Made by a program: the position numbers and the translations under genes. Shown one piece after another: positions 18,826-43,500 of a DNA stretch of 64,000 bases (positions are counted from its first letter, which is position 1; every line of letters starts with the position of its first letter). This DNA comes from Eutreptiella sp. 'Long Island Sound 2002'. Taxonomy: Eukaryota > Euglenozoa > Euglenophyceae > Eutreptiales > Eutreptiaceae. The notes beneath the pieces were generated by a model. That model saw only the letters and a list, made by a program, of their open reading frames with translations, ran no database searches and was not told the origin of the DNA. The stretch is taken from contig OZ038380.1 in assembly GCA_964036045.1 (NCBI GenBank), positions 189,876,951-189,940,950 on the forward strand, given 5' to 3'.

Positions 18826-19017
18826 CGCAGTCAGGGCTGATTCGGGGGGGGGGGGGGGCTACCATTGTTGAGATGGTTGAGAAACCAAGAATTTGCGGCC
18901 TTCCAGCGGTGTGGGGGGGGGGGTTCGACAGGGGTGAAGTTCGTCGGGGAAATTTTCGTTTTTCAGATTGGTGCCGAATCATGGCGTGTGCACAGTGCGT
19001 TGGCGTACTGCAGGCCC

Positions 19018-19114
19018 ACTAAAAAAAAATATTCTGCGCTAAAAAAAAGTATTCCGCGCTAAAAAAAAATACCCAGGCATTTTTTTTCTGCGCGCAGTAT
19101 TTTTTTTTTAGCGC
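19018..19114. repeat. A/T-tract repeats with a 17-bp inverted repeat
   Basis: Three A-tracts separated by 'tattcYgcgct' are followed by the inverse. GCGCTAAAAAAAAATAC at 19056-19072 can pair with 19097-19114 with a single T bulge, leaving a 24-base loop that contains CTGCGCGCAG, itself a palindrome. No gene is involved. Confidence 0.8.
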
Positions 19115-19189
19115 AAATGCCGCAAATTCTATTGCCTTCGGCAAGTCCACCTCGCAGAGCATCTACTCCAAGCAACACACACCCAAAAT

Positions 19190-20130
19190 AGGGTATAAAC
19201 TACATAAATACGGGCTAAAACATGCTTTGCATAGCTTGGATGATCATTTTACGTGATCACGATATCAAAAAAATAAGTTTCCAAAACTTCGATTTTTGAG
19301 CTGCCCAGGGTGAAAAATTGTATGAGCAGGTTGTGGGTGTACCCATCCCTTGGAAGCCCGCCCCCCCCCCCAAGCCAATACCCAAATCGGGTGAAAAACA
19401 CGTAACTATGGCCTAAAACATGCTTTACATACCTTGGATGGCCATTTTAGGTGATTACAATATCAAAAAAACAAGTTTCATAAACTTCGATTTTTGAGCT
19501 GCCAAGGGCGAAAAATTGCATAAGCAGGTTGTGTACCAATCCCTTGGGAGACCCCCCCCCCCCCCCCCGGACCTAATACCAAAATCGGATGAAAAACACG
19601 TAAATACGGCCTAAAACATGCTTTACATACCTTGGATGGTCATTTTAGGTGGTCACAATATCAAAAAGACCAGTTTCGAAAACTTCGATTTTTGAGCTGC
19701 CCTGAGTAAAAAACTGCATAACCACGTTGTGTACCAATCCCTTGGGAGAACCCCCCCCCCCCCCCCGGGACCTAATACCCAAATAGGGTGAAAAACATCC
19801 AAATACGGCCTAGAACATGCTTTACATAGCTTGGATGGTCATTTTAAGTGGTCACAATATCCAAAAAACAAGTTTCAGAAACTTCGATTTTTGAGCTGCC
19901 CAGGGTGAAAAACTGCATAAGCAGGTTGTGTACCAATCCCTTGGGAGACCCCCCCCCCCCCACCCAATACCCAAATAAGGTGAAAAACACGTAAATACGG
20001 CCTAAAACATGCTTTACATACCTTGGATGGTCATTGTAGGTGATGACAATATCAAAAAAACAAGTTTCGAAAACTTCGATTTTTGAGCTGTCCAAGGTGA
20101 AAAACTGCATAAGCAGGTTGTGTACCGGCC
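19190..20130. repeat. Tandem repeat, period about 196-200 bp, five units
   Basis: The landmark 'cttcgatttttgagctg' occurs at about 19288, 19484, 19684, 19884 and 20075. Each unit also has 'acatgctttacata', 'ttggatggtcatttta', 'aagcaggttgtgtacc' and a C tract of 10-18 after 'cccttgggaga'. Units are diverged by substitutions and C-tract length. It is unrelated to the ~203-bp satellite despite the similar length. Confidence 0.9.
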
Positions 20131-21192
20131 CATTCACTAGGCCATTATTGGTGGAAACAGACATTTCACGTCTTTGGCACGGGCATTAACCGGCCCTAAG
20201 CAAGGCTACAGACTGCAAAAAAGGTCCTTTTGTATCCTAGTAGGCATATACTGTCACAGCATCCCTACTCACACCCCTCAGAGTGGGTACCACGGGGTCA
20301 TCGGGTTTGCCAAAACCCCCAACATAGCAAAAATGGCTAAAAAGTGCATAAACTGCGTAAGCGCTCGTCCCACTTCGCCCCATACAAACCCAATGGAGTC
20401 GGGACCGGGAAACACTTTTTCGGCTCAAAATCAAAAAAAACCAAAAGATTCATGATTTTCGACCCAAAAAAAGGGGGGGTCATTTTTTCGACATTTTTGA
20501 CCCCCCCCCCCACCCCCCCACCCCCCCCCCCCTCCCACAAAACCTTAAAAAAGTGGGTTTCAAGTGGGGGGGTCTGGGGGGCTCCGGACCAAAAACTCAT
20601 TGGGGGATGCGTTTATTGGACAAAAAAATGATTTTACAAGGGGTTAAACTAACAATTCAACCCCTTGGGGTAGGGTACGCGAATAGGCCCAAAAATGCCA
20701 AAATGGGGGGGTATGTGGCGTTTTCCCCTATATACGCCTGCCTGGCTTTGATCTAACAACCTCTGCGAGGTGATTTTAGAAGTGGTCAAAAAAGTGTTAT
20801 GGGCGATTCCCTAGGCACCTGTGGGGGACCGTGGTGTGTGCGGGGACCCCATGACGGCACGGGTGATGAAGCAAGTTTGATTTTGACCCCCCCCCCCCCC
20901 CCTCAGCTTGGATTTACACCCTGGTTTCACCCATTTCTACCTTTTTACGCATTCCCACCACATCCACTCTTTTTCTGGGTTGATTGCTCCCCACCCACAG
21001 GGGACACTGACCTGTGAGGCTTGCCACCAACCCCCCGCCCACCCCTCTAGACCCCCTCTGGAGCGCCAGATTAGCAAGACGAGGCGCTATACAAATGTCG
21101 TTTGTTGCCCAGACATGTTAAATGCAATTGTCAGCTTGAGTTGTCTGGTTAACTCCATTCAATGCACAGCATTCTATGGACCGCCCCCCCCC
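20131..21192. other. Non-coding stretch before the palindrome
   Basis: No gene recognised. It contains long C tracts at 20503-20532, 20888-20902 and 21184-21200, and A-rich runs. The third copy of the dispersed ATNDICIAPRLA motif lies at 21074-21110 on the minus strand. Confidence 0.6.
21074..21110 (-). repeat. Dispersed short motif, copy 3
   Basis: Same sequence as 12929-12964 with only edge differences. The minus strand reads ATNDICIAPRLANLA. It sits about 80 bases outside the left end of the palindrome. Confidence 0.7.
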
Positions 21193-21272
21193 CCCCCCCC
21201 ACCTTCTCGCTGCAGACAGTGCCCAGCAGTCTATGGGCGCAATTCTGTTCCGGGATGCAGGTGGTCATATCA

Positions 21273-22975
21273 GAGAGTTCATCGCAGAGGATCACAGGGA
21301 CTATCTGAATGTTGTAAAGTAGGGTACTCAGCCACTTTGGCCAGAGTCCATGTGCACAGATTCATCTGCTCAGAGAACAGAGGGAACAGGGGTCTTCCTT
21401 CGCTGGGGGACCTGTGCAGAGAGGTCATTTGAACGGATCATACATAATGCCTGAATTTTGTGAAGTAGGGCACTTAGCCACCTTGGCCAGAGCCCAGGGG
21501 CACAATTTCAAGGGTTGCGGTCAGGTGCTCGCAGTGGAGGGCTCTGAGTGCACGATCAAGTGGCAGACAGAAAAGACTGGGCACAGCCTTCATGTGTGCC
21601 TGCTGGTTTTGCTTGCATGTTCACTGAATTCACAGTATTTTTTGTCATGCGAACCCAGATAGAGGACTAATTGCAGAATGGTGCAAAGGGGCAAAGCAGT
21701 GACAATCCAGGGTGTATGACGGGCAACCCACTGATTCATCTCAGCCTTCGATCTTCACCCCGCTGTTTTTATTGAGCGGCCTACAAGCTTGGCAGTTTCC
21801 CACTGCAGTACTTGGGTTCAGACTCAGTCAATCAGGGGTTGCAGATGTCCTGTTGCAACTGAAACAGGCACTGCATCATGGCTTTTGTCTTCGTGCAAGT
21901 GTGCCAGGTGGGGCAGGGTGTTATTTAGAAAATTGCAGGTTTCATTGGTTATCGCAGGGAAGGGTTGGAAAGATGTGTTCAAGCATTTTTGAGTGGGTTC
22001 AAAACTGTTGTAGGAATGTGCAAGATTGAAACGAGTGCTTTTCTAGGCAATTTTGGACTACCCACACACAGAGAGTTCATCGCAGAGGATCACAGGGACT
22101 ATCTGAATGTTGTAAAGTAGGGTACTCAGCCACTTTGGCCAGAGTCCATGTGCACAGATTCATCTGCTCAGAGAACAGAGGGAACAGGGGTCTTCCTTCG
22201 CTGGGGGACCTGTGCAGAGAGGTCATTTGAACGGATCATACATAATGCCTGAATTTTGTGAAGTAGGGTATTTAGCCACCTTGGCCAGAGCCCAGGGGCA
22301 CAATTTCAAGGGTTGCGGTCAGGTGCTCGCAGTGGAGGGCTCTGAGTGCACGATCAAGTGGCAGACAGAAAAGACTGGGCACAGCCTTCATGTGTGCCTG
22401 CTGGTTTTGCTTGCATGTTCACTGAATTCACAGTATTTTTTGTCATGCGAACCCAGATAGAGGACTAATTGCAGAATGGTGCAAAGGGGCAAAGCAGTGA
22501 CAATCCAGGGTGTATGACGGGCAACCCACTGATTCATCTCAGCCTTCGATCTTCACCCCGCTGTTTTTATTGAGCGGCCTACAAGCTTGGCAGTTTCCCA
22601 CTGCAGTACTTGGGTTCAGACTCAGTCAATCAGGGGTTGCAGATGTCCTGTTGCAACTGAAACAGGCACTGCATCATGGGTTTTGTCTTCGTGCAAGTGT
22701 GCCAGGTGGGGCAGGGTGTTATTTAGAAAATTGCAGGTTTCATTGGTTATCGCAGGGAAGGGTTGGAAAGATGTGTTCAAGCATTTTTGAGTGGGTTCAA
22801 AACTGTTGTAGGAATGTGCAAGATTGAAACGAGTGCTTTTCTAGGCAATTTTGGACTACCCACACACAGAGAGTTCATCGCAGAGGATCACAGGGACTAT
22901 CTGAATGTTGTAAAGTAGGGTACTCAGCCACTTTGGCCAGAGTCCATGTGCACAGATTCATCTGCTCAGAGAACA
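21273..22975. repeat. 798-bp tandem duplication (left arm)
   Basis: The landmark 'gagagttcatcgcagagg' occurs at about 21273, 22071 and 22869, giving two full units and a start of a third. Units differ at very few sites (for example 'catggctttt' against 'catgggtttt'), and those differences are mirrored in the right arm at 31147-32848. The 105-codon open frames at 21712-22029 and 22510-22827 are identical to each other but match nothing I know. Confidence 0.93.
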
Positions 22976-24600
22976 GAGAGAAAATCAGTTTTCGCCCAAA
23001 AATGGCCATGAATTGCCAACTTTTTGCCGAAAGAATGCACGAACGGTTTGTAGGATCATTGACGACCGCCGGGGTCGGGGACGGACCCATTGAAACGTGT
23101 TTGCAGTTGTATTGGAGCAACATATCGGGGGTTGCAAGGCCGCCAGCACCAAAAAAAAATCAGTTCGCCCAACAATGGCCGAAAATTGCCAATTTTTTGC
23201 CGAAAGAATGCACGAGAGTTTTGTAGGATCATTGACGACCGGCGGGGTCGGGGACGGACCCACTGAAGCGTGTTTGCAGTTGTATTGGAGCAACATATCG
23301 GGGGTTGCAAGGCCGCCAGCACAAAAAAAAAATCAGTTCGCCCAACAATGGCCAAAAATTGCCAATGTTCTGCCGAAAGAATGCACGAGAGTTTTGTAAG
23401 ATCATTGACGACCGCCGGGGTCGGGGACGGACCCACTGAAACGTGTTTGCAGTTGTATTGGAGCAACATATCGGGGGTTGCAGGGCCGCCAGCGCAAAAA
23501 AAAAAAATCAGTTTTCGCCCAAAAATGGCCATGAATTGCCAACTTTTTGCCGAAAGAATGCACGAACGGTTTGTAGGATCATTGAGGACCGCCGGGGTCG
23601 GGGACGGACCCACTGAAACGTGTTTGCAGCTGTATTGGAGCAACATATCGGGGGTTGCAAGGCCGCCAGCACAAAAAAAAATCAGTTCGCCCAACAATGG
23701 CCAAAAATTGCCAATTTTTTGCCGAAAGAATGCACGAACGGTTTGTATGATCATTGACGACCGCCGGGGTCGGGGACGGACCCACTGAAACGTGTTTGCA
23801 GTTGTATTGGAGCAACATATCGGGGGTTGCAGGGCCGCCAGCACCAAAAAAAAATCAGTTCGCCCAACAATGGCCAAAAATTGCCAATTTCTTGCCGAAA
23901 GAATGCACGAGAGTTTTGTAGGATCATTGACGACCGGCGGGGTCGGGGACGGACCCACTGAAGCGTGTTTGCAGTTGTATCGGAGCAACATATCGGGGGT
24001 TGCAGGGCCGCCAGCACAAAAAAAAAATCAGTTCGCCCAACAATGGCCAAAAATTGCCAATTTTTTGCCGAAAGAATGCACGAGAGTTTTGTAGGATCAT
24101 TGACGACCGCCGGGGTCGGGGACGGACCCACTGAAACGTGTTTGCAGTTGTATTGCAGCAACATATCGGGGGTTGCAGGGCCGCCAGCGCAAAAAAAAAA
24201 AATCAGTTTTCGCCCAAAAATGGTCATGAATTGCCAAACCTTGCCGAAAGACTGCACGAACGGTTTGTAGGATCATTGACGACCGCCGGGGTCGGGGACG
24301 GACCCACTGAAACGTGTTTGCAGTTGTATTGGAGCAACATATCGGGGGTTGCAGGGCCGCCAGCACAAAAAAAAAATCAGTTCGCCCAACAATGGCCAAA
24401 AATTGCCAATATTTTGCCGAAAGAATGCACGAGAGTTTTGTAGGATCATTGACGACCGCCAGGGTCGGGGACGGACCCACTGAAACGTGTTTGGAATTGT
24501 ATTGGAGCAGCCTATTGGGGGTTGCAAGGCCGCCAGCACAAAAAAAAACAGTTTTCGCCCAAAGATGGCCAAAATTTGGCAATTTTTTTGCCGAAAATAG
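22976..24600. repeat. ~173-bp tandem repeats, about ten units (left arm)
   Basis: The landmark 'atcattga' falls at 23055, 23228, 23401, 23578, 23750, 23923, 24096, 24272 and 24445, giving spacings of 172-177. Two subtypes alternate: one with 'cagttcgcccaacaatggcc', the other, 3-4 bases longer, with 'cagttttcgcccaaaaatgg'. The repeat length is not a multiple of three, so the open frames that cross it on either strand are artefacts of low stop density. Confidence 0.93.
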
Positions 24601-25339
24601 TGTTTTTTTGGCCGGGGTCGTGAGTTGTAGGGCCCCATACCGTATTCTGAGGGTGCCCGACCCACTGAAATCTGTTTGGAATTGTATTGGAGCAACCTAT
24701 TGGGACTTGCAGGGCCGCCAGCACAACAAAAAACAGTTTTCGTCCAAAAATGGCCAAAAATTGACAATTTTTGGCCAAAAACAGTGTATTTTTGGAGATC
24801 AATCGGGCAGGAGGAACCCCCCTCTCCTATTTTGACGGTGCATATTTAAAAAAAAAGGTTTCCTTTGGTCTCTTTGGGTACAAAACCTATTTTCATGGTA
24901 TTTTTGTGCCTATACTATACTATACAGGTACGCTGGTGTGCAGCACTGTTCTGCAGCGCCAACCCAGAGCAGACCAAAATATTCAAAATAGGCCGAATTC
25001 CAGGGTTTTTGATGGTTTGGGAGAAAGCTCGGGTGGGAGGAACCTCCCCATCCGTATTTTGGGGCAAGAGAATCCCAAGAAAAGGGCAATTTCTGTCGAA
25101 AATCCTCTATAGGCAGGTACACTGGTGTGCAGCAGTGTTTTGCAGGACCAGCCCAGAGCAGGCCAAAATACCCCAAAATAGGCCAAATTTCAGGGTTTTT
25201 GATATTTTTGGACAAAACCCGCGTAGGAGGACCCCCCCCCTTTTTCGGAGCCGTAGAAGCCAAAAAAAAAATAGGCCATTTGGCGCGAAAATCCCCCTTT
25301 TGCTGAACTTTTGAATTTTGGGAAAAAACAGTTGCTAAA
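24601..25339. repeat. Diverged repeats between the 173-bp array and the minisatellite (left arm)
   Basis: 24601-24770 holds one or two decayed relatives of the 173-bp unit. Two ~190-bp units start with 'ggtacRctggtgtgcagca' at about 24926 and 25117. The first is preceded by 'tatactatactatacagg'. No gene. Confidence 0.75.
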
Positions 25340-26999
25340 ATCATAGGTGATACTCCCCAATCCTCTTTGCATCCTCCCCGATCCTCCTCGCATCATCCTC
25401 GATCCTTTAGCAGCCTCCCCGATCCTCCCGGCATCCTCCCCGGTCCTCCCCGCATCCTCCCCGTTCCTCCCCGCATCGTTCGCGATCCCCCCCGATCCTC
25501 CCTGCGTCCTCCCCGATCCTTCCCACATACTCCCCGATCCTCCCCGCATCCTCCGAGATCCTCCCCGCATCCTCGCCGATCCTCCCGCATCTTCCCCGAT
25601 CGTCCCCGCATCATCTCCGGTCCCGCCCGCATCCTCCCCGGTCCTCCCCGCATCCTCCCCGAGCCTCCCCACATAATTCTTGATCCTCCCCGCACCCTCC
25701 TCGATCCTCCTCGCATCCTCTCCAATTCTCGCTGCATACTCCCCGATCCTCTCCGCACCCTCCCCGATCCTCTCCGCATTCTCCCAGATCCTCCCCGCAT
25801 CCTGCCTGATCCTCTCCGCATCCTCCTTGACACTCCCCACCTCCTCCCCGATCCTCCCCGCATCCTCCCTGGTCCTCCCCACATCCTCCCTGGTCCTCCC
25901 CAGATCCTCCCCGCATCCTGCCCAATCCTCCCCACATTATCCACGGTCCTCACCGCGTCCCCCCCAATCCTCCTCGTATCCTTGCCAATACTCTCCGCAT
26001 CCTCCCTGATCCTCTCCGCCTCCTCCCCAATTTCTCGCTGTATCCTCTCCGATCTTCCCCCGCATCCTCCCCGATCCTCCCCTCATCGTTCCCGGTCCGC
26101 CGCGCATCCTGCCCGGTCCTCGCCACATTCTCACCGGTCCTTTCCACATCGTCCCCGATCCTCCTCGCATCCTCCCAGATCCTCACCGCATCCTCCCTGA
26201 TACTCCCCGCCTCCTCCCCGATCCTCCCCGCATCGTCCGCGGTCAGCCCCGCATCCTCCCCAACCCTCCCGGCATCCTCCCGGCATCCACCCCGGTCCTC
26301 CCCGATCCACCCCGCATACTCCCCGATCCTCCTTGCATCCTCCCCAATCCTCCCGCAGCATCCCCTATCCTCCCGCATCCTCCCCGGTCGCCACCGCATC
26401 TTCTCCGATCCTCCCTGCACCCTCTCGGATCCTCCTCGCCTTCTCCCCGATCCTCCCGCGGCCCCCCGGATGCTCCCGGCATCCTCCCCGGTCGTCCCCC
26501 CATCCTCCCCGGTCCTCCCCGCATCCTTGCCGATTCTGCCCGATCCTCCCTGCATCCTCCCCGATCCTCCCCGCATCCTGCCGGATCCTCCCTGCATCCT
26601 CCCCGATCCTCCCCGCATGCTCCCAAATCTTCCGGCATCCTCCCCGATCGTCCCGCATCCTCCCCGGTCCCCCCTGCATCCTCCCTGGTCCTCCCCGCAT
26701 CCTGACCGGTCCTCCCCGCATCCTCCCCGAACCTCCCCAAATACTCCTTGCTGCTCCATGTACCCTCGTTGATCCTCCCGGCATCCTCCCCGGTCCCCCC
26801 CACATCCTCCCCGATCCTCCCGGCATTTTCCCCGGTCCTCTCCGCATCCTCCCATGTCCTCCGCGCATCCTCCCCGATCCTCCCCATATAGTTCCCTATC
26901 GTCCCTGCACCCTCCCTGATTGTCTTCGCTTTCTCCCCGGTTCTCCCCGCATCCTCCCCGATCCTCCCCGCTTCCTCCCCGGTTATCCCCACATCCTCC
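25340..26999. repeat. Pyrimidine-rich minisatellite (left arm)
   Basis: About 1.66 kb of imperfect ~15-bp units of the type GATCCTCCCCGCATCCTCC. The plus strand is almost purely C/T apart from GATC and GCAT words. All six frames are long and open but of extreme composition (Pro/Ser/Ile or Gly/Arg/Glu/Asp), as expected of such repeats. Confidence 0.93.
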
Positions 27000-27120
27000 C
27001 TGCTCCTACCCGCATCCTCCATGGTCTTCCCCGCATCGTCCCCGATCCTCCCCGCATCCTCCCACATCCTCCCCGGTTAGGGTTAGGGTTAGGGTTAGGG
27101 TTAGGGTTAGGGGGATAGCC
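27000..27120. other. Asymmetric centre of the palindrome
   Basis: 121 bases not shared by the arms: 77 more bases of the minisatellite (27000-27076), six TTAGGG units, then GGATAGCC. The right arm begins immediately afterwards with the inverse of position 26999. Confidence 0.9.
27077..27112 (+). repeat. Telomeric repeat block, six TTAGGG units
   Basis: Six perfect TTAGGG units at the centre of the inverted repeat, with the G-rich strand running left to right. On the usual telomere convention the left arm would be the capped chromosome side. Confidence 0.95.
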
Positions 27121-28780
27121 GGAGGATGTGGGGATAACCGGGGAGGAAGCGGGGAGGATCGGGGAGGATGCGGGGAGAACCGGGGAGAAAGCGAAGACAA
27201 TCAGGGAGGGTGCAGGGACGATAGGGAACTATATGGGGAGGATCGGGGAGGATGCGCGGAGGACATGGGAGGATGCGGAGAGGACCGGGGAAAATGCCGG
27301 GAGGATCGGGGAGGATGTGGGGGGGACCGGGGAGGATGCCGGGAGGATCAACGAGGGTACATGGAGCAGCAAGGAGTATTTGGGGAGGTTCGGGGAGGAT
27401 GCGGGGAGGACCGGTCAGGATGCGGGGAGGACCAGGGAGGATGCAGGGGGGACCGGGGAGGATGCGGGACGATCGGGGAGGATGCCGGAAGATTTGGGAG
27501 CATGCGGGGAGGATCGGGGAGGATGCAGGGAGGATCCGGCAGGATGCGGGGAGGATCGGGGAGGATGCAGGGAGGATCGGGCAGAATCGGCAAGGATGCG
27601 GGGAGGACCGGGGAGGATGGGGGGACGACCGGGGAGGATGCCGGGAGCATCCGGGGGGCCGCGGGAGGATCGGGGAGAAGGCGAGGAGGATCCGAGAGGG
27701 TGCAGGGAGGATCGGAGAAGATGCGGTGGCGACCGGGGAGGATGCGGGAGGATAGGGGATGCTGCGGGAGGATTGGGGAGGATGCAAGGAGGATCGGGGA
27801 GTATGCGGGGTGGATCGGGGAGGACCGGGGTGGATGCCGGGAGGATGCCGGGAGGATTGGGGAGGATGCGGGGCTGACCGCGGACGATGCGGGGAGGATC
27901 GGGGAGGAGGCGGGGAGTATCAGGGAGGATGCGGTGAGGATCTGGGAGGATGCGAGGAGGATCGGGGACGATGTGGAAAGGACCGGTGAGAATGTGGCGA
28001 GGACCGGGCAGGATGCGCGGCGGACCGGGAACGATGAGGGGAGGATCGGGGAGGATGCGGGGGAAGATCGGAGAGGATACAGCGAGAAATTGGGGAGGAG
28101 GCGGAGAGGATCAGGGAGGATGCGGAGAGTATTGGCAAGGATACGAGGAGGATTGGGGGGGACGCGGTGAGGACCGTGGATAATGTGGGGAGGATTGGGC
28201 AGGATGCGGGGAGGATCTGGGGAGGACCAGGGAGGATGTGGGGAGGACCAGGGAGGATGCGGGGAGGATCGGGGAGGAGGTGGGGAGTGTCAAGGAGGAT
28301 GCGGAGAGGATCAGGCAGGATGCGGGGAGGATCTGGGAGAATGCGGAGAGGATCGGGGAGGGTGCGGAGAGGATCGGGGAGTATGCAGCGAGAATTGGAG
28401 AGGATGCGAGGAGGATCGAGGAGGGTGCGGGGAGGATCAAGAATTATGTGGGGAGGCTCGGGGAGGATGCGGGGAGGACCGGGGAGGATGCGGGCGGGAC
28501 CGGAGATGATGCGGGGACGATCGGGGAAGATGCGGGAGGATCGGCGAGGATGCGGGGAGGATCTCGGAGGATGCGGGGAGGATCGGGGAGTATGTGGGAA
28601 GGATCGGGGAGGACGCAGGGAGGATCGGGGGGGATCGCGAACGATGCGGGGAGGAACGGGGAGGATGCGGGGAGGACCGGGGAGGATGCCGGGAGGATCG
28701 GGGAGGCTGCTAAAGGATCGAGGATGATGCGAGGAGGATCGGGGAGGATGCAAAGAGGATTGGGGAGTATCACCTATGAT
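27121..28780. repeat. Purine-rich minisatellite (right arm)
   Basis: Mirror of 25340-26999, with units of the type GGGGAGGATCGGGGAGGATGC. The frequent GGGG runs spaced by a few bases give it G-quadruplex potential on the plus strand. Confidence 0.93.
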
Positions 28781-29520
28781 TTTAGCAACTGTTTTTTCCC
28801 AAAATTCAAAAGTTCAGCAAAAGGGGGATTTTCGCGCCAAATGGCCTATTTTTTTTTTGGCTTCTACGGCTCCGAAAAAGGGGGGGGGTCCTCCTACGCG
28901 GGTTTTGTCCAAAAATATCAAAAACCCTGAAATTTGGCCTATTTTGGGGTATTTTGGCCTGCTCTGGGCTGGTCCTGCAAAACACTGCTGCACACCAGTG
29001 TACCTGCCTATAGAGGATTTTCGACAGAAATTGCCCTTTTCTTGGGATTCTCTTGCCCCAAAATACGGATGGGGAGGTTCCTCCCACCCGAGCTTTCTCC
29101 CAAACCATCAAAAACCCTGGAATTCGGCCTATTTTGAATATTTTGGTCTGCTCTGGGTTGGCGCTGCAGAACAGTGCTGCACACCAGCGTACCTGTATAG
29201 TATAGTATAGGCACAAAAATACCATGAAAATAGGTTTTGTACCCAAAGAGACCAAAGGAAACCTTTTTTTTTAAATATGCACCGTCAAAATAGGAGAGGG
29301 GGGTTCCTCCTGCCCGATTGATCTCCAAAAATACACTGTTTTTGGCCAAAAATTGTCAATTTTTGGCCATTTTTGGACGAAAACTGTTTTTTGTTGTGCT
29401 GGCGGCCCTGCAAGTCCCAATAGGTTGCTCCAATACAATTCCAAACAGATTTCAGTGGGTCGGGCACCCTCAGAATACGGTATGGGGCCCTACAACTCAC
29501 GACCCCGGCCAAAAAAACAC

Positions 29521-31146
29521 TATTTTCGGCAAAAAAATTGCCAAATTTTGGCCATCTTTGGGCGAAAACTGTTTTTTTTTGTGCTGGCGGCCTTGCAACC
29601 CCCAATAGGCTGCTCCAATACAATTCCAAACACGTTTCAGTGGGTCCGTCCCCGACCCTGGCGGTCGTCAATGATCCTACAAAACTCTCGTGCATTCTTT
29701 CGGCAAAATATTGGCAATTTTTGGCCATTGTTGGGCGAACTGATTTTTTTTTTGTGCTGGCGGCCCTGCAACCCCCGATATGTTGCTCCAATACAACTGC
29801 AAACACGTTTCAGTGGGTCCGTCCCCGACCCCGGCGGTCGTCAATGATCCTACAAACCGTTCGTGCAGTCTTTCGGCAAGGTTTGGCAATTCATGACCAT
29901 TTTTGGGCGAAAACTGATTTTTTTTTTTTGGTGCTGGCGGCCCTGCAACCCCCGATATGTTGCTGCAATACAACTGCAAACACGTTTCAGTGGGTCCGTC
30001 CCCGACCCCGGCGGTCGTCAATGATCCTACAAAACTCTCGTGCATTCTTTCGGCAAAAAATTGGCAATTTTTGGCCATTGTTGGGCGAACTGATTTTTTT
30101 TTTGTGCTGGCGGCCCTGCAACCCCCGATATGTTGCTCCAATACAACTGCAAACACGCTTCAGTGGGTCCGTCCCCGACCCCGCCGGTCGTCAATGATCC
30201 TACAAAACTCTCGTGCATTCTTTCGGCAAGAAATTGGCAATTTTTGGCCATTGTTGGGCGAACTGATTTTTTTTTGGTGCTGGCGGCCCTGCAACCCCCG
30301 ATATGTTGCTCCAATACAACTGCAAACACGTTTCAGTGGGTCCGTCCCCGACCCCGGCGGTCGTCAATGATCATACAAACCGTTCGTGCATTCTTTCGGC
30401 AAAAAATTGGCAATTTTTGGCCATTGTTGGGCGAACTGATTTTTTTTTGTGCTGGCGGCCTTGCAACCCCCGATATGTTGCTCCAATACAGCTGCAAACA
30501 CGTTTCAGTGGGTCCGTCCCCGACCCCGGCGGTCCTCAATGATCCTACAAACCGTTCGTGCATTCTTTCGGCAAAAAGTTGGCAATTCATGGCCATTTTT
30601 GGGCGAAAACTGATTTTTTTTTTTTGCGCTGGCGGCCCTGCAACCCCCGATATGTTGCTCCAATACAACTGCAAACACGTTTCAGTGGGTCCGTCCCCGA
30701 CCCCGGCGGTCGTCAATGATCTTACAAAACTCTCGTGCATTCTTTCGGCAGAACATTGGCAATTTTTGGCCATTGTTGGGCGAACTGATTTTTTTTTTGT
30801 GCTGGCGGCCTTGCAACCCCCGATATGTTGCTCCAATACAACTGCAAACACGCTTCAGTGGGTCCGTCCCCGACCCCGCCGGTCGTCAATGATCCTACAA
30901 AACTCTCGTGCATTCTTTCGGCAAAAAATTGGCAATTTTCGGCCATTGTTGGGCGAACTGATTTTTTTTTGGTGCTGGCGGCCTTGCAACCCCCGATATG
31001 TTGCTCCAATACAACTGCAAACACGTTTCAATGGGTCCGTCCCCGACCCCGGCGGTCGTCAATGATCCTACAAACCGTTCGTGCATTCTTTCGGCAAAAA
31101 GTTGGCAATTCATGGCCATTTTTGGGCGAAAACTGATTTTCTCTCT
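29521..31146. repeat. ~173-bp tandem repeats, about ten units (right arm)
   Basis: Mirror of 22976-24600, with the same two subtypes in the reverse order. Confidence 0.93.
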
Positions 31147-32848
31147 GTTCTCTGAGCAGATGAATCTGTGCACATGGACTCTGGCCAAAGTGGCTGAGTA
31201 CCCTACTTTACAACATTCAGATAGTCCCTGTGATCCTCTGCGATGAACTCTCTGTGTGTGGGTAGTCCAAAATTGCCTAGAAAAGCACTCGTTTCAATCT
31301 TGCACATTCCTACAACAGTTTTGAACCCACTCAAAAATGCTTGAACACATCTTTCCAACCCTTCCCTGCGATAACCAATGAAACCTGCAATTTTCTAAAT
31401 AACACCCTGCCCCACCTGGCACACTTGCACGAAGACAAAACCCATGATGCAGTGCCTGTTTCAGTTGCAACAGGACATCTGCAACCCCTGATTGACTGAG
31501 TCTGAACCCAAGTACTGCAGTGGGAAACTGCCAAGCTTGTAGGCCGCTCAATAAAAACAGCGGGGTGAAGATCGAAGGCTGAGATGAATCAGTGGGTTGC
31601 CCGTCATACACCCTGGATTGTCACTGCTTTGCCCCTTTGCACCATTCTGCAATTAGTCCTCTATCTGGGTTCGCATGACAAAAAATACTGTGAATTCAGT
31701 GAACATGCAAGCAAAACCAGCAGGCACACATGAAGGCTGTGCCCAGTCTTTTCTGTCTGCCACTTGATCGTGCACTCAGAGCCCTCCACTGCGAGCACCT
31801 GACCGCAACCCTTGAAATTGTGCCCCTGGGCTCTGGCCAAGGTGGCTAAATACCCTACTTCACAAAATTCAGGCATTATGTATGATCCGTTCAAATGACC
31901 TCTCTGCACAGGTCCCCCAGCGAAGGAAGACCCCTGTTCCCTCTGTTCTCTGAGCAGATGAATCTGTGCACATGGACTCTGGCCAAAGTGGCTGAGTACC
32001 CTACTTTACAACATTCAGATAGTCCCTGTGATCCTCTGCGATGAACTCTCTGTGTGTGGGTAGTCCAAAATTGCCTAGAAAAGCACTCGTTTCAATCTTG
32101 CACATTCCTACAACAGTTTTGAACCCACTCAAAAATGCTTGAACACATCTTTCCAACCCTTCCCTGCGATAACCAATGAAACCTGCAATTTTCTAAATAA
32201 CACCCTGCCCCACCTGGCACACTTGCACGAAGACAAAAGCCATGATGCAGTGCCTGTTTCAGTTGCAACAGGACATCTGCAACCCCTGATTGACTGAGTC
32301 TGAACCCAAGTACTGCAGTGGGAAACTGCCAAGCTTGTAGGCCGCTCAATAAAAACAGCGGGGTGAAGATCGAAGGCTGAGATGAATCAGTGGGTTGCCC
32401 GTCATACACCCTGGATTGTCACTGCTTTGCCCCTTTGCACCATTCTGCAATTAGTCCTCTATCTGGGTTCGCATGACAAAAAATACTGTGAATTCAGTGA
32501 ACATGCAAGCAAAACCAGCAGGCACACATGAAGGCTGTGCCCAGTCTTTTCTGTCTGCCACTTGATCGTGCACTCAGAGCCCTCCACTGCGAGCACCTGA
32601 CCGCAACCCTTGAAATTGTGCCCCTGGGCTCTGGCCAAGGTGGCTAAGTGCCCTACTTCACAAAATTCAGGCATTATGTATGATCCGTTCAAATGACCTC
32701 TCTGCACAGGTCCCCCAGCGAAGGAAGACCCCTGTTCCCTCTGTTCTCTGAGCAGATGAATCTGTGCACATGGACTCTGGCCAAAGTGGCTGAGTACCCT
32801 ACTTTACAACATTCAGATAGTCCCTGTGATCCTCTGCGATGAACTCTC
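31147..32848. repeat. 798-bp tandem duplication (right arm)
   Basis: Mirror of 21273-22975, including the single-base difference between the two units (31441 against 32240). Confidence 0.93.
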
Positions 32849-32928
32849 TGATATGACCACCTGCATCCCGGAACAGAATTGCGCCCATAGACTGCTGGGC
32901 ACTGTCTGCAGCGAGAAGGTGGGGGGGG

Positions 32929-33055
32929 TTAGGGTTAGGGTTAGGGTTAGGGTTAGGGTTAGGGTTAGGGTTAGGGTTAGGGTTAGGGTTAGGGTTAGGG
33001 TTAGGGTTAGGGTTAGGGTTAGGGTTAGGGTTAGGGGTTAGGGTTAGGGTTAGGG
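32929..33055 (+). repeat. Long internal telomeric array, 21 TTAGGG units
   Basis: Twenty perfect TTAGGG units and one TTAGGGG (33031-33037). It starts exactly where the right arm's G tract ends. It is followed by two degenerate units (TTATGG, TTATGGG) and then non-telomeric DNA, so it is interstitial in this sequence. The orientation is what a chromosome end on the right would show. Confidence 0.97.
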
Positions 33056-33068
33056 TTATGGTTATGGG

Positions 33069-33225
33069 CGGTCTATAGACAACAAAAAAGTACCAGCTTT
33101 GACGCCACAAAACGGCATGGTGCTTGCACTGTCAAAGGCGGCCCCAAATTTCTTTGGGCCCGAGGAAACGTGAACTTCAAAAGCGAGGTAGAAGCCCTTT
33201 TTTCCTTTACCTGGTGGATAGAGCG
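33069..33225. other. Sequence between the telomeric array and segment P
   Basis: 157 bases that have no second copy inside the window, because the window starts where the other P copy begins. The minus strand is open from 33301 to 33062 (79 codons, including KGFYLAFEVHVSSGPKKFG). It is protein-like in composition but unrecognised. Confidence 0.5.
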
Positions 33226-34524
33226 CGGCCTGAGACGTTAGCACCGATAGTGAGTCCATATGAACGAGTATGAAGGGGCCATACAACGGGATAATGAACA
33301 CGCAGCATCAGGTGCTTTCAACATTCGCGGGAACAAAGCCCAGCATATTTGAGGCTTTGCAAGCAAGGAGATACGAGGGTGCCGACCCCCCTTGGGATAA
33401 GGAGATATTTGTGTGGCGTTTGGCAACTACCACCCCCGAATTCACGTTCATGTCCCCTAAGATGAGGCGCCCGGGAGTTTCAAGCTCCCCTCTTGTAGTA
33501 TGGAAAGGTCAAAGTGCCCTCTTGAAAAGGATCATCAATGTGAAGAACGGCCCTCGTGGCAAAGGGCCCTGGGTTCCTGACAGTAGCGCCGACCTGGGCA
33601 ATTTTGGCATCCTGAGGCCACTTGGGGACCCCATGGCTCCGAGACACCAGCGAATCAGGGGACGCCAGATTGCATAGAACGTCCAAGGGGTTCATAGGCG
33701 AAGGCTGTATTTTTTTGCCTCGCCCCTACCCCGGTGGCCCCCCACAAGGGGTCATGTATGGACATTTTCAGCCAAAGTAATTCTGGGCTGAAAACACCTC
33801 TTTCGAGGCATTTGGGGCAAGGCTCGGCCCTTTCAAACACTTCCATGCACTCGCAGTATATTAATGTCTTCGATTTGATGTCTCGTCCAGCTGCGAACCT
33901 TCGCATGGGATATCTACCTACTGCCCTCCTTATCCAAAACGCTGGCCCAATCGTCATGCTGGGCACAGTTTGCAATCCCTTGGTTAGTAGACAGTGATGA
34001 AGCTCATCAAACAACGCACCACACTGCCTCCGTGATGACTGTACAAACTGAGTATGTACTCGATTGGTCGGAGCCTTGGGTGGCCTGGGATTCTAGAGCC
34101 ATCGAGCATCCCAGGGCGGAAAGCGGATTATCCACCGTGGGCCTGCTACGTAGACAGAGTCCACGCTCACGGGTGATTATGTGGCACTAAGCTGTAGAGA
34201 TGGACACGCGTGGAGTTTTTGCCCTGGCGATTGCACCAAAAGCCACCACACATTGTCATTCAAAATGCCATGCACCCAGACCGACCTCATAGCACAACTA
34301 TGGTAGCGGTCGTCAAAAGTGAAGGAAAGATCTGCTCGTGGAGTCTAGAGCCCCAGAGCATCCCGCAGTGCAATGTGGATTGTGCACAGTGGACCTGCTA
34401 CCTGGACATCCTCCAACCTCACGGGCAACTCTCTGGCACTAAGATGCAAAGATGGTCATTGCCCGATGGTGTGCCTTGGCCATTGGACCAAACGTGGTAA
34501 GGTCCACAGTATGATGGTATGGGT
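33226..34524. repeat. Subtelomere-like segment P, copy 2
   Basis: Direct repeat of 1-1296 at an offset of 33,225, with a handful of substitutions (for example at 33506, 33699 and around 34126-34132). It lies between the telomeric array and the long satellite array. The matching order P then satellite in both places indicates a duplicated subtelomeric unit. Confidence 0.95.
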
Positions 34525-37500
34525 ATGCATTGTCATGGAGCCTGACAGCATGAGTGTGACCTCCTAGGTGTCCTCTAGAGGTCCATAAACCTCAAGCTGA
34601 AGAGATGGCCCACAAACCGTTTTTTTGTACAAATTTCACCGTTCCACTACGTAACTTTTAAGCTTTTTCAGGATGGCTGTTTTTCAGTGATAGTCGGCAA
34701 CCCAAGGCACCCCCCCAGGGCAACGTGGATGCATTGTCATGGAGCCTGACAGCATGAGTGTGACCTCCTAGGTGTCCTCTAGAGGTTCATAAACCTCAAG
34801 CTGAAGAGATGGCCCACAAACCGTTTTTTTTGTACAAATGTCACCGTTCCACTACGTAACTTTTAGGCTTTTTCAGGATGGCTGTTTTCAGTGATAGTCG
34901 GCAACCCAAGGCACCCCCCCAGGGCAATGTGGATGCATTGTCATGGAGCCTGACAGCATGAGTGTGACCTCCTAGGTGTCCTCTAGAGGTTCATAAACCT
35001 CAAGCTGAAGAGATGGCCCGCAAACCATTTTTTTGTACAAATTTCACCGTTCCACTACGTAACTTTTAGGCTTTTTCAAGATGGCTGTTTTCAGTGGTAG
35101 TCGGCAACCCAAGGCACCCCCCCAGGGCAACGTGGATGCATTATCATGGAGCCTGACAGCATGAGTGTGACCTCCTAGGTGTCCTCTAGAGGTCCATAAA
35201 CCTCAAGCTGAAGAGATGGCCCGCAAACCATTTTTTTGTACAAATTTCACCGTTCCACTACGTAACTTTTAGGCTTTTTCAAGATGGCTGTTTTCAGTGG
35301 TAGTCGGCAACCCAAGGCACCCCCCCAGGGCAATGTGGATGCATTGTCATGGAGCCTGACAGCATGAGTGTGACCTCCTAGGTGTCCTCTAGAGGTTCAT
35401 AAACCTCAAGCTGAAGAGATGGCCCACAAACCGTTTTTTTGTACAAATTTCACCATTCCACTACGTAACTTTTAGGCTTTTTCAGGATGGCTGTTTTCAG
35501 TGATAGTCGGCAACCCAAGGCACCCCCCCAGGGCAATGTGGATGCATTGTCATGGAGCCTGACAGCATGAGTGTGACCTCCTAGGTGTCCTCTAGAGGTC
35601 CATAAACCTCAAGCTGAAGAGATGGCCCACAAACCGTTTTTTTGTACAAATTTCACCGTTCCACTACGTAACTTTTAAGCTTTTTCAGGATGGCTGTTTT
35701 TCAGTGATAGTCGGCAACCCAAGGCACCCCCCCAGGGCAACGTGGATGCATTGTCATGGAGCCTGACAGCATGAGTTTGACCTCCTAGGTGTCCTCTAGA
35801 GGTTCATCAACCTCAAGCTGAAGAGATGGCCCGCAAACCATTTTTTTTGTACAAATTTCACCGTTCCACTACGTAACTTTTAGGCTTTTTCAGGATGGCT
35901 GTTTTCAGTAATAGTCGGCAACCCAAGGCACCCCCCCAGGGCAATGTGGATGCATTGTCATGGAGCCTGACAGCATGAGTGTGACCTCCTAGGTGTCGGC
36001 TAGAGGTTCATAAACCTCAAGCTGAAGAGATGGCCCACAAACCGTTTTTTTTGTACAAATGTCACCGTTCCACTACGTAACTTTTAGGCTTTTTCAGGAT
36101 GGCTGTTTTCAGTGATAGTCGGCAACCCAAGGCACCCCCCCAGGGCAATGTGGATGCATTGTCATGGAGCTTGACAGCATGAGTGTGACCTCCTTGGTGT
36201 CCTCTAGAGGTTCATAAACCTCAAGCTGAAGAGATGGCCCGCAACCCGTTTTTTTGTACAAATTTCACCGTTCCACTACGTAACTTTTAGGCTTTTTCAA
36301 GATGGCTGTTTTCAGTAATAGTCGGCAACCCAAGGCACCCCCCCAGGGCAATGTGGATGCATTGTCATTGAGCCTGACAGCATGAGTGTGACCTCCTAGG
36401 TGTCCTCTAGAGGTTCATAAACCTCAAGCTGAAGAGATGGCCCACAAACCGTTTTTTTGTACCAATTTCACCGTTCCAGTACGTAACTTTTAGGCTTTTT
36501 CAGGATGGCTGTTTTCAGTGATAGTCGGCAACCCAAGGCACCCCCCCGGGGCAATGTGGATGCATTGTCACGGAGCCTGACCGCATGAGTGTGACCTCCT
36601 AGGTGTCCTCTAGAGGTTCAGAAACCTCAAGCTGAAGAGATGGCCCACAAACCGTTTTTTTTGTACAAATTTCACCGTTCCACTACGTAACTTTTAGGCT
36701 TTTTCAGGATGGCTGTTTTCAGTGATAGTCGGCAACCCAAGGCACCCCCCCAGGGCAATGTGGATGCATTGTCACGGAGCCTGACAGCATGAGTGTGACC
36801 TCCTAGGTGTCCTCTAGAGGTCCATAAACCTCAAGCTGAAGAGATGGCCCACAAACCGTTTTTTCGTACAAATTTCACCGTTCCACTACGTAACTTTTAA
36901 GCTTTTTCAGGATGGCTGTTTTCAGTGATAGTCGGCAACCCAAGGCAGCCCCCCAGGGCAACGTGGATGCATTGTCACGGAGCCTGACCGCATGAGTGTG
37001 AGCTCCTAGGTGTCCTCTAGAGGTTCATAAACCTCAAGCTGAAGAGATGGCCCACAAACCTTTTTTTTTGTACAAATTTCACCATTCCACTACGTAACTT
37101 TTAGGCTTTTTCAGGATGGCTGTTTTCAGTGATAGTCGGCAACCCAAGGCAGCCCCCCAGGGCAACGTGGATGCATTATCATGGAGCCTGACAGCATGAG
37201 TTTGACCTCCTAGGTGTCCTCTAGAGGTTCATCAACCTCAAGCTGAAGAGATGGCCCGCAAACCATTTTTTTTGTACAAATTTCACCGTTCCACTACGTA
37301 ACTTTTAGGCTTTTTCAGGATGGCTGTTTTCAGTAATAGTCGGCAACCCAAGGCACCCCCCCAGGGCAATGTGGATGCATTGTCATGGAGCCTGACAGCA
37401 TGAGTGTGACCTCCTAGGTGTCGGCTAGAGGTTCATAAACCTCAAGCTGAAGAGATGGCCCACAAACCGTTTTTTTTGTACAAATGTCACCGTTCCACTA

Positions 37501-40500
37501 CGTAACTTTTAGGCTTTTTCAGGATGGCTGTTTTCAGTGATAGTCGGCAACCCAAGGCACCCCCCCAGGGCAATGTGGATGCATTGTCATGGAGCTTGAC
37601 AGCATGAGTGTGACCTCCTAGGTGTCCTCTAGAGGTTCATAAACCTCAAGCTGAAGAGATGGCCCGCAAACCATTTTTTTGTACAAATTTCACCGTTCCA
37701 CTACGTAACTTTTAGGCTTTTTCAAGATGGCTGTTTTCAGTGGTAGTCGGCAACCCAAGGCACCCCCCCGGGGCAACGTGGATGCATTGTCATGGAGCCT
37801 GACAGCATGAGTGTGACCTCCTAGGTGTCCTCTAGAGGTTCATAAACCTCAAGCTGAAGAGATGGCCCACCAATCATTTTTTTGTACAAATGTCACCGTT
37901 CCACTACGTAACTTTTAAGCTTTTTCAGGATGGCTGTTTTCAGTGATAGTCGGCAACCCAAGGCAGCCCCCCAGGGCAACGTGGATGCATTGTCACGGAG
38001 CCTGACCGCATGAGTGTGACCTCCTAGGTGTCCTCTAGAGGTTCATAAACCTCAAGCTGAAGAGATGGCCCACAAACCGTTTTTTTTGTACAAATTTCAC
38101 CATTCCACTACGTAACTTTTAGGCTTTTTCAAGATGGCTGTTTTCAGTGGTAGTCGGCAACCCAAGGCACCCCCCCAGGGCAATGTGGATGCATTGTCAT
38201 GGAGCCTGACAGCATGAGTGTGACCTCCTAGGTGTCGGCTAGAGGTTCATAAACCTCAAGCTGAAGAGATGGCCCACAAACCGTTTTTTTGTACAAATTT
38301 CACCGTTCCACTACGTAACTTTTAAGCTTTTTCAGGATGGCTGTTTTCAGTGATAGTCGGCAACCCAAGGCAGCCCCCCAGGGCAACGTGGATGCATTGT
38401 CACGGAGCCTGACCGCATGAGTGTGACCTCCTAGGTGTCCTCTAGAGGTTCATAAACCTCAAGCTGAAGAGATGGCCCACAAACCGTTTTTTTTGTACAA
38501 ATTTCACCATTCCACTACGTAACTTTTAGGCTTTTTCAGGATGGCTGTTTTCAGTGATAGTCGGCAACCCAAGGCACCCCCCCAGGGCAACGTGGATGCA
38601 TTATCATGGAGCCTGACAGCATGAGTGTGACCTCCTAGGTGTCCTCTAGAGGTTCATAAACCTCAAGCTGAAGAGATGGCCCACCAATCATTTTTTTGTA
38701 CAAATGTCACCGTTCCACTACGTAACTTTTAGGCTTTTTCAGGATGGCTGTTTTCAGTGATAGTCGGCAACCCAAGGCAGCCCCCCAGGGCAACGTGGAT
38801 GCATTGTCACGGAGCCTGACCGCATGAGTGTGACCTCCTAGGTGTCCTCTAGAGGTTCATAAACCTCAAGCTGAAGAGATGGCCCGCAAACCATTTTTTT
38901 GTACAAATTTCACCGTTCCACTACGTAACTTTTAGGCTTTTTCAAGATGGCTGTTTTCAGTGGTAGTCGGCAACCCAAGGCACCCCCCCAGGGCAATGTG
39001 GATGCATTGTCATGGAGCCTGACAGCATGAGTGTGACCTCCTAGGTGTCGGCTAGAGGTTCATAAACCTCAAGCTGAAGAGATGGCCCACAAACCGTTTT
39101 TTTGTACAAATTTCACCGTTCCACTACGTAACTTTTAAGCTTTTTCAGGATGGCTGTTTTCAGTGATAGTCGGCAACCCAAGGCAGCCCCCCAGGGCAAC
39201 GTGGATGCATTGTCACGGAGCCTGACCGCATGAGTGTGACCTCCTAGGTGTCCTCTAGAGGTTCATAAACCTCAAGCTGAAGAGATGGCCCACAAACCGT
39301 TTTTTTTGTACAAATTTCACCATTCCACTACGTAACTTTTAGGCTTTTTCAGGATGGCTGTTTTCAGTGATAGTCGGCAACCCAAGGCACCCCCCCAGGG
39401 CAACGTGGATGCATTATCATGGAGCCTGACAGCATGAGTGTGACCTCCTAGGTGTCCTCTAGAGGTTCATAAACCTCAAGCTGAAGAGATGGCCCACCAA
39501 TCATTTTTTTGTACAAATGTCACCGTTCCACTACGTAACTTTGGGGCTTTTTCAAAATGGCTGTTTTCAGTGATAGTCGGCAACCCAAGGCACCCCCCCA
39601 GAGCAACGTGGATGCATTGTCATGGAGCCTGACAGCATGAGTGTGACCTCCTAGGTGTCGGCTAGAGGTTCATAAACCTCAAGCTGAAGAGATGGCCCAC
39701 AAACCGTTTTTTTTGTACAAATGTCACCGTTCCACTACGTAACTTTTAGGCTTTTTCAGGATGGCTGTTTTCAGTGATAGTCGGCAACCCAAGGCACCCC
39801 CCCAGGGCAATGTGGATGCATTGTCATGGAGCTTGACAGCATGAGTGTGACCTCCTAGGTGTCCTCTAGAGGTTCATAAACCTCAAGCTGAAGAGATGGC
39901 CCACAAACCATTTTTTTGTACAAATTTCACCGTTCCACTACGTAACTTTTAGGCTTTTTCAAGATGGCTGTTTTCAGTGGTAGTCGGCAACCCAAGGCAC
40001 CCCCCCGGGGCAACGTGGATGCATTGTCATGGAGCCTGACAGCATGAGTGTGACCTCCTAGGTGTCCTCTAGAAGTTCATAAACCTCAAGCTGAAGAGAT
40101 GGCCCACAAACCGTTTTTTCGTACAAATTTCACCGTTCCACTACGTAACTTTTAAGCTTTTTCAGGATGGCTGTTTTCAGTGATAGTCGGCAACCCAAGG
40201 CAGCCCCCCAGGGCAACGTGGATGCATTGTCACGGAGCCTGACCGCATGAGTGTGACCTCCTAGGTGTCCTCTAGAGGTTCATAAACCTCAAGCTGAAGA
40301 GATGGCCCACAAACCTTTTTTTTTGTACAAATTTCACCATTCCACTACGTAACTTTTAGGCTTTTTCAGGATGGCTGTTTTCAGTGATAGTCGGCAACCC
40401 AAGGCACCCCCCCAGGGCAACGTGGATGCATTATCATGGAGCCTGACAGCATGAGTTTGACCTCCTAGGTGTCCTCTAGAGGTTCATCAACCTCAAGCTG

Positions 40501-43500
40501 AAGAGATGGCCCGCAAACCATTTTTTTTGTACAAATTTCACCGTTCCACTACGTAACTTTTAGGCTTTTTCAGGATGGCTGTTTTCAGTAATAGTCGGCA
40601 ACCCAAGGCACCCCCCCAGGGCAATGTGGATGCATTGTCATGGAGCCTGACAGCATGAGTGTGACCTCCTAGGTGTCGGCTAGAGGTTCATAAACCTCAA
40701 GCTGAAGAGATGGCCCACAAACCGTTTTTTTTGTACAAATGTCACCGTTCCACTACGTAACTTTTAGGCTTTTTCAGGATGGCTGTTTTCAGTGATAGTC
40801 GGCAACCCAAGGCACCCCCCCAGGGCAATGTGGATGCATTGTCATGGAGCTTGACAGCATGAGTGTGACCTCCTTGGTGTCCTCTAGAGGTTCATAAACC
40901 TCAAGCTGAAGAGATGGCCCGCAACCCGTTTTTTTGTACAAATTTCACCGTTCCACTACGTAACTTTTAGGCTTTTTCAAGATGGCTGTTTTCAGTAATA
41001 GTCGGCAACCCAAGGCACCCCCCCAGGGCAATGTGGATGCATTGTCATTGAGCCTGACAGCATGAGTGTGACCTCCTAGGTGTCCTCTAGAGGTTCATAA
41101 ACCTCAAGCTGAAGAGATGGCCCACAAACCGTTTTTTTGTACCAATTTCACCGTTCCAGTACGTAACTTTTAGGCTTTTTCAGGATGGCTGTTTTCAGTG
41201 ATAGTCGGCAACCCAAGGCACCCCCCCGGGGCAATGTGGATGCATTGTCACGGAGCCTGACCGCATGAGTGTGACCTCCTAGGTGTCCTCTAGAGGTTCA
41301 GAAACCTCAAGCTGAAGAGATGGCCCACAAACCGTTTTTTTTGTACAAATTTCACCGTTCCACTACGTAACTTTTAGGCTTTTTCAGGATGGCTGTTTTC
41401 AGTAATAGTCGGCAACCCAAGGCACCCCCCCAGGGCAATGTGGATGCATTGTCATGGAGCCTGACAGCATGAGTGTGACCTCCTAGGTGTCGGCTAGAGG
41501 TTCATAAACCTCAAGCTGAAGAGATGGCCCACAAACCGTTTTTTTTGTACAAATGTCACCGTTCCACTACGTAACTTTTAGGCTTTTTCAGGATGGCTGT
41601 TTTCAGTGATAGTCGGCAACCCAAGGCACCCCCCCAGGGCAATGTGGATGCATTGTCATGGAGCTTGACAGCATGAGTGTGACCTCCTAGGTGTCCTCTA
41701 GAGGTTCATAAACCTCAAGCTGAAGAGATGGCCCGCAAACCATTTTTTTGTACAAATTTCACCGTTCCACTACGTAACTTTTAGGCTTTTTCAAGATGGC
41801 TGTTTTCAGTGGTAGTCGGCAACCCAAGGCACCCCCCCGGGGCAACGTGGATGCATTGTCATGGAGCCTGACAGCATGAGTGTGACCTCCTAGGTGTCCT
41901 CTAGAAGTTCATAAACCTCAAGCTGAAGAGATGGCCCACAAACCGTTTTTTTGTACAAATTTCACCGTTCCACTACGTAACTTTTAAGCTTTTTCAGGAT
42001 GGCTGTTTTCAGTGATAGTCGGCAACCCAAGGCAGCCCCCCAGGGCAACGTGGATGCATTGTCACGGAGCCTGACCGCATGAGTGTGACCTCCTAGGTGT
42101 CCTCTAGAGGTTCATAAACCTCAAGCTGAAGAGATGGCCCACAAACCGTTTTTTTTGTACAAATTTCACCATTCCACTACGTAACTTTTAGGCTTTTTCA
42201 GGATGGCTGTTTTCAGTGATAGTCGGCAACCCAAGGCACCCCCCCAGGGCAACGTGGATGCATTATCATGGAGCCTGACAGCATGAGTGTGACCTCCTAG
42301 GTGTCCTCTAGAGGTTCATAAACCTCAAGCTGAAGAGATGGCCCACCAATCATTTTTTTGTACAAATGTCACCGTTCCACTACGTAACTTTGGGGCTTTT
42401 TCAAAATGGCTGTTTTCAGTGATAGTCGGCAACCCAAGGCACCCCCCCAGAGCAACGTGGATGCATTGTCATGGAGCCTGACAGCATGAGTGTGACCTCC
42501 TAGGTGTCGGCTAGAGGTTCATAAACCTCAAGCTGAAGAGATGGCCCACAAACCGTTTTTTTTGTACAAATGTCACCGTTCCACTACGTAACTTTTAGGC
42601 TTTTTCAGGATGGCTGTTTTCAGTGATAGTCGGCAACCCAAGGCACCCCCCCAGGGCAATGTGGATGCATTGTCATGGAGCTTGACAGCATGAGTGTGAC
42701 CTCCTAGGTGTCCTCTAGAGGTTCATAAACCTCAAGCTGAAGAGATGGCCCACAAACCATTTTTTTGTACAAATTTCACCGTTCCACTACGTAACTTTTA
42801 GGCTTTTTCAAGATGGCTGTTTTCAGTGGTAGTCGGCAACCCAAGGCACCCCCCCGGGGCAACGTGGATGCATTGTCATGGAGCCTGACAGCATGAGTGT
42901 GACCTCCTAGGTGTCCTCTAGAGGTTCATCAACCTCAAGCTGAAGAGATGGCCCACAAACCGTTTTTTCGTACAAATTTCACCGTTCCACTACGTAACTT
43001 TTAAGCTTTTTCAGGATGGCTGTTTTCAGTGATAGTCGGCAACCCAAGGCAGCCCCCCAGGGCAACGTGGATGCATTGTCACGGAGCCTGACCGCATGAG
43101 TGTGACCTCCTAGGTGTCCTCTAGAGGTTCATAAACCTCAAGCTGAAGAGATGGCCCACAAACCTTTTTTTTTGTACAAATTTCACCATTCCACTACGTA
43201 ACTTTTAGGCTTTTTCAGGATGGCTGTTTTCAGTGATAGTCGGCAACCCAAGGCACCCCCCCAGGGCAACGTGGATGCATTATCATGGAGCCTGACAGCA
43301 TGAGTTTGACCTCCTAGGTGTCCTCTAGAGGTTCATCAACCTCAAGCTGAAGAGATGGCCCGCAAACCATTTTTTTTGTACAAATTTCACCGTTCCACTA
43401 CGTAACTTTTAGGCTTTTTCAGGATGGCTGTTTTCAGTAATAGTCGGCAACCCAAGGCACCCCCCCAGGGCAATGTGGATGCATTGTCATGGAGCCTGAC

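Follow-up and report, generated by a model that had tools for sequence, protein, structure and literature searches.

What is known of telomere fusion, breakage and healing comes mainly from cancer cells, patients and yeast mutants. In human cells in crisis, sister-chromatid fusions almost exclusively pair a chromatid that bears telomere repeats with one that has been resected into the subtelomere (PMC4864465), and human GC-rich subtelomeric minisatellites carried in yeast have been described as truncated and then capped with telomere repeats (PMC3486850). Here we describe a large palindrome with telomere repeats at its centre, found in a 64,000-nucleotide stretch of the genome of the euglenophyte Eutreptiella sp. 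'Long Island Sound 2002' (hereafter the window, whose numbering is used unless another contig is named). The window corresponds to positions 189876951-189940950 of a contig of 189,951,280 bases (C3) in an assembly of 2.28 Gb and 2205 contigs. The window stops 10,330 bases short of the end of this contig of about 190 Mb, which makes the palindrome subtelomeric. A spliced-leader sequence has 702 + 811 exact matches in the genome, against 0 and 0 for its reversed control, an indirect sign of a euglenid.

The palindrome consists of two 5.8-kb arms. Alignment of positions 21193-26999 to positions 32928-27121 produced 5804 identities, 3 mismatches (23981/30140, 24189/29931 and 26264/27856) and one 1-base indel, an identity of 99.93% at which a chance origin is excluded. 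This bears out an earlier note on this DNA, which had described two mirror-image arms of about 5.8 kb with few mismatches and about one base of indel. Such a pair of inverted, near-identical arms adjoining a chromosome end is one of the features by which an inverted duplication from telomere fusion is recognised. The 121-base centre (27000-27120) is asymmetric, as the same note had stated, and the 77 left-only bases and six TTAGGG units that it listed are present; it had passed over 8 further bases (27113-27120) that precede the right arm. It had also rightly observed that TTAGGG does not meet CCCTAA here: no CCCTAA follows the (TTAGGG)6, and a simple telomere-telomere fusion was rejected for that reason. 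Three features can be added to its description, namely the subtelomeric location, the finish of the right arm in 8 G that directly abut a TTAGGG tract, and the start of the left arm, which sits within a run of 17 C with ordinary sequence beyond.

Copies of the arm elsewhere in the genome indicate which of the two arms is the original. A search with the 1674 bases at the start of the arm retrieved 67 matches, at least 24 of them 1400 bases or longer (a lower bound, with 40 of 1493 candidates scored). By our reading, fifteen of these 24 long copies point toward the chromosome end, six lie on contigs without assigned ends, and three point inward, these being the right arm of the palindrome and two copies on contig C21. 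Twelve loci were cut out for comparison. In 11 of them, the left arm itself being one, the sequence crosses the outer boundary at 21193 unbroken, by way of 14-19 C; the one exception is the right arm, which is interrupted there, with 8 C left and CCCTAA following. The first 5113 bases of contig C1 align without interruption to positions 24029-18909 and cross the boundary with 18 C. At the inner end, the comparison was extended further for three copies, on contigs C10, C13 and C11, which match the window up to position 27075 at 99.84%, 99.68% and 99.28% identity, respectively, and past that point continue as minisatellite, without TTAGGG, over the 1342-1371 bases examined. Since the left arm recurs on other chromosomes along with the sequence on either side of it, and of the two arms only the right one is cut at both ends, the left arm is the original end. 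Judged by these comparisons, this member of the family lost what lay beyond 27075/27076 and was capped there; the right arm is an inverted copy, 77 bases shorter on the inside. Five of the 12 loci (C1777, C1590, C26, C21 and C4) and the end of C1 hold the arm segment in tandem pieces that skip from about 23100 to 18909, and the right copy on C10 is without part of the 173-bp array that the arm contains. The tandem-piece join within C1:1-5795 falls at a G run, making it a second join of that kind.

The fusion point, the left cap and the right cap each returned a single exact-pattern match in the genome, in C3. At the left cap, CCCCG is followed by GTTAGGG, with an overlap of one or two bases. 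Taking C10, C13 and C11 as the reference for the left cap and the 11 unbroken loci as that for the right, telomere repeats begin at the point of truncation with short or no overlap at both caps, as in de novo telomere addition. Runs of 8 or more C hold 261 of the 25,230 bases between 1847 and 27076, so a random break would meet one in about 1 of 100 cases, which speaks for the account proposed below. A captured tract would resemble one made by telomerase, most of all at the right cap, which could be a telomerase product or a tract that arrived together with the 1.46-kb repeated module beyond it (module T, described below); the G run favours telomerase. On the two sides of the fusion point, the left carries TTAGGG and the right lacks 77 bases, which is the pairing of a repeat-bearing end with a resected one. 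The far end of the right arm, where a G run is cut and joined to TTAGGG with a module T of the type found on C1 behind it, has the form of an end that was broken and then capped or translocated. The 8 extra bases, taken with the adjoining flank, match a stretch 19 bases further in at all but 1 of 11 positions, and suggest minisatellite slippage or a templated insertion; no source for them was found in the C10, C13 and C11 arrays examined.

We propose, with a probability of roughly 0.65, that the end had been healed once and, with its telomere very short, fused to its sister or homologue; that it then broke at a G run and was healed a second time; and that it acquired a distal module later on. 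The original end is truncated in its GC-rich minisatellite at 27075/27076 and bears TTAGGG, which telomerase would have added. With about six repeats remaining, this end would have joined a sister or homologue that was missing its telomere and 77 bases, giving rise to the inverted right arm that is now observed. The product, presumably with two centromeres, would have broken 5.8 kb past the fusion, in the G run, and its G-ended strand would have been extended with TTAGGG, probably by telomerase, to yield the junction seen in the assembly. By recombination within its repeats, the new telomere may then have gained module T and the satellite behind it from another end; this copy of T does show an affinity to C1.

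The kind of event is already known. As in sister fusion and breakage-fusion-bridge in human crisis cells (PMC4864465), the locus holds inverted copies of an end, one with repeats and the other resected, and later breakage, which in that system leads to a terminal inverted duplication, would have done likewise here. The present case differs in coming from a natural assembled genome, in carrying another cap and a module captured afterwards, and in involving a partner that is possibly a sister. The human inverted duplications with terminal deletion or translocation described in PMC3907307 share with this locus a spacer between the arms and a short-overlap junction between inversion and telomere; they differ in extent (megabases, against 5.8 kb here), and the 121-base spacer of the palindrome contains telomere repeats, with no inverted homology at its boundary. 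The truncated array with telomere repeats added at a very short overlap resembles the minisatellites reported in PMC3486850, except that the event here is a natural one, in which a role for telomerase or G-quadruplexes would be putative.

The features discussed so far, and those that follow, are collected in Table 1.

Table 1. Features of the palindrome and of the DNA on either side of it, in window coordinates.
Position	Strand	Feature	Basis or remark
1..1843	+	Second module T (1-1299) and 2.7 satellite units; tract at -217 to -170	Sequence comparison
18909..21192	+	Proximal flank of left arm, continuous with the arm at other chromosome ends	Alignment to C1
21184..21200	+	C run, n=17; right arm cut inside its counterpart, 8 left	14-19 C in 11 unbroken loci
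21193..26999	+	Left arm, original orientation, toward chromosome end	Alignment and comparison with other copies
22981..24596	+	173-bp tandem array in left arm; mirror copy at 29524-31140	Tandem Repeats Finder
25353..27075	+	GC-rich minisatellite, period about 21/42 bp, truncated at 27075	Array goes on in C10, C13 and C11
27000..27076	+	77 bases in left arm only	Up to 27075 also in C10, C13 and C11
27077..27112	+	(TTAGGG)6, read as eroded telomere of left arm	Cap junction found once in genome
27113..27120	+	8 extra bases at fusion point	Fusion junction found once in genome
27121..32928	-	Right arm, inverted copy	Alignment and comparison with other copies
32929..33064	+	TTAGGG tract joined to right-arm G run; two distal TTATGG variants common to all module T copies searched for	Arm/tract junction found once
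33065..34524	+	Module T, third copy in subtelomere, 1.46 kb	Tract/T boundary in 128 exact copies genome-wide
34525..59858	+	203-bp satellite array, about 124 copies, after module T	Repeat detection

Several points weigh against fusion followed by breakage, and they are best considered along with the explanations to which they lend weight. By sequence alone, the joining and breakage steps would have the same outcome as a replicative fold-back, in which a resected 3' end folded, copied its own strand, stopped at the C run and was capped, no two ends ever being joined. Synthesis-driven palindrome formation after telomere loss is the main biological rival: fold-back would yield an equal palindrome with a spacer, and palindromes of this origin are described for human patients (PMC3907307) and for telomere-less yeast (PMC4981268). 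Inverted homology between the end of the spacer and the start of the inverted copy is expected of fold-back in the human cases of PMC3907307; at the boundary here, the 3' end of the would-be primer before 27121 has 0 contiguous bases complementary to the opposing strand, in a test that the 8 extra bases blur and make imperfect. We consider fold-back unlikely. An assembly artefact, whether a chimeric or folded read or a wrong contig join at a repetitive end, appears slightly less likely still, although the palindrome is known from one assembly of a single strain and is supported by assembly-level sequence, and lies among subtelomeric repeats that have near-identical copies. No telomere repeats were found at the assembled end of C3 (of 16 contigs whose first 400 bases were examined, 8 open with CCCTAA and 2 with N), and blocks of inward-facing module T on C2 (right end) and C21 (left end) suggest orientation errors, such that some end blocks of the assembly may be misplaced or flipped. 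Nevertheless, a folded read should give a symmetric centre, and here the 77 bases, the TTAGGG units and the 8 bases are all one-sided; the outer end has a unique junction of its own, at a G run; no N occurs in the 114,330 bases examined around the palindrome; and the substitutions between the arms sort with alleles of other copies. A read folded on itself was rejected on the asymmetric centre and the separate outer junction, and this centre together with the G-run cap is not expected from misassembly.

The right arm could also have come from a C10-like copy, by fusion between chromosomes or by insertion of a foreign inverted segment. The C10 copy differs from the left arm at 7 of 5875 positions and from the right arm at 6 of 5799, and over their first 1674 bases both arms and C10 are 100% identical, which also tells against fusion with a sister or homologue. 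The two arms, for their part, differ from each other at 3 of 5799 shared positions, and the right arm has 12 differences to C13 and 33 to C11; against the C1 end, the arms agree at 56 of 57 variable sites (2833 columns). Both arms carry G at site 23181, in contrast to the A of C10, C13, C11 and the two C1 copies, and four alleles private to C10 (23537, 23563, 26150 and 26698) are missing from the right arm. Of the sites at which the arms disagree, 23981 and 26264 carry a C that is unique to the left arm among the copies compared, and at 24189 it is the right arm that deviates, in a place where the alignment is uncertain. A C10-like donor is on these grounds distinctly improbable, and the simplest reading, by which the right arm copies the same end as the left, is favoured but not secured; we would like to note that this choice is carried by the one shared site, the single diagnostic one, and the four C10-private sites, which is a further point against the proposed account. 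The earlier note had envisaged a capped end to which a slightly shortened copy of that end is joined in inverted orientation; this is supported, the right arm being alone in having both ends cut, and "same end" has the standing just given. Finally, the palindrome could be taken for a mobile element, a telomere-targeting transposon with long inverted repeats. The arm does recur near chromosome ends, and telomeric retrotransposons of Magnaporthe are described as leaving interstitial telomere tracts (PMC7367193). Other copies, in contrast, extend past both arm ends, so that these are not element ends and no ends shared between copies emerged; the centre of the palindrome is unique; the two arm ORFs (open reading frames) submitted to Pfam gave no match; and none of the copies examined contained a further palindrome that shares these ends and shows a target-site duplication. 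We regard a mobile element as very improbable indeed.

Yeast Y' elements are separated by telomere tracts. Module T resembles them in following a telomere tract, in its many copies, in facing mostly outward and in having varied proximal neighbours, and can be described as a repeated, tract-headed and end-oriented module of Y'-like kind, although it has no sequence relation to Y' and some of its copies lie far inside contigs. Three copies of T are present in the region. The one adjoining the palindrome has 1 difference in 1459 positions to a C1 copy and 10 and 11 differences to the two other C3 copies, and its origin as a local duplicate of its neighbours was rejected, since it is nearer to the C1 copy. 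Among the 100 of 128 tract/T boundaries that were listed, 86 lie on contigs of known size, all within 1.5 Mb of a contig end; 47 of these face outward and 39 inward, and once the copies at C2's right end and C21's left end are set aside, the counts become 42 outward and 3 inward. The 30 T copies that were cut out, from C1 and C2 only, are preceded by 11 different pre-tract sequences, 20 of the 30 falling in two of them. T thus seems to have become attached to several telomere-tipped ends by way of their repeats, much as in the Y' arrays of yeast, and duplication of whole blocks would explain the large groups. No Pfam match was obtained for the T ORF at 45-449, the only T ORF submitted, and no search for a helicase gene was made.

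The inward T blocks occupy 192.98-193.54 Mb of C2 and 7-237 kb of C21, each with an orientation change within it, and could be inverted end blocks or scaffolding errors. Exact tract/T boundaries were also found deep inside C22 (16.6 Mb) and C23 (11.9, 12.7 and 29.1 Mb), possibly marking old chromosome fusions or misjoins.

A broader view, which we hold to be possible and rather doubtful, is that chromosome ends in this genome are renewed in cycles of truncation in GC-rich subtelomeric repeats, capping with TTAGGG at G-ended sites, occasional sister fusion and capture of tract-headed modules from elsewhere. Were this so, the 128 tract/T boundaries, with their differing neighbours, would form a fossil record and the palindrome would represent one full cycle with every junction preserved. 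At the palindrome itself, the succession of original end, fusion point, second break, second cap and later capture can be followed by comparison with intact relatives elsewhere in the genome, which would show that such an event was survived and retained; the growth of very large protist subtelomeres also becomes testable. Among the papers listed by a limited literature search on Euglena subtelomeres, none dealt with the subject, and such papers may exist.

Other repeats and ORFs were recorded nearby. Searches for RNA genes gave 0 Rfam matches at the gathering score and 0 genes with ARAGORN. A 1149-bp direct repeat (9786-10934 and 16599-17747, 99.65% identical) carries an ORF with a GNAT domain, for which one homologue, with 13 members, was retrieved. 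The ORF at 63136-63948 on the minus strand resembles, in our judgement, the end of a Ty3-type integrase; it has no Pfam match of its own and has 572 homologues, some of them with PF00665. Short inverted units (of the TTGTCCGACGGACAA type) form arrays with a higher period of 252 bp from about 8.4 to 0.2 kb beyond the window's left edge, up to a telomere tract. On C1, four near-identical 3-kb loci (at 230150, 342199, 364259 and 497921; 99.5-99.9%) surround a 4-unit telomere tract and belong to large repeats near the end of that contig.

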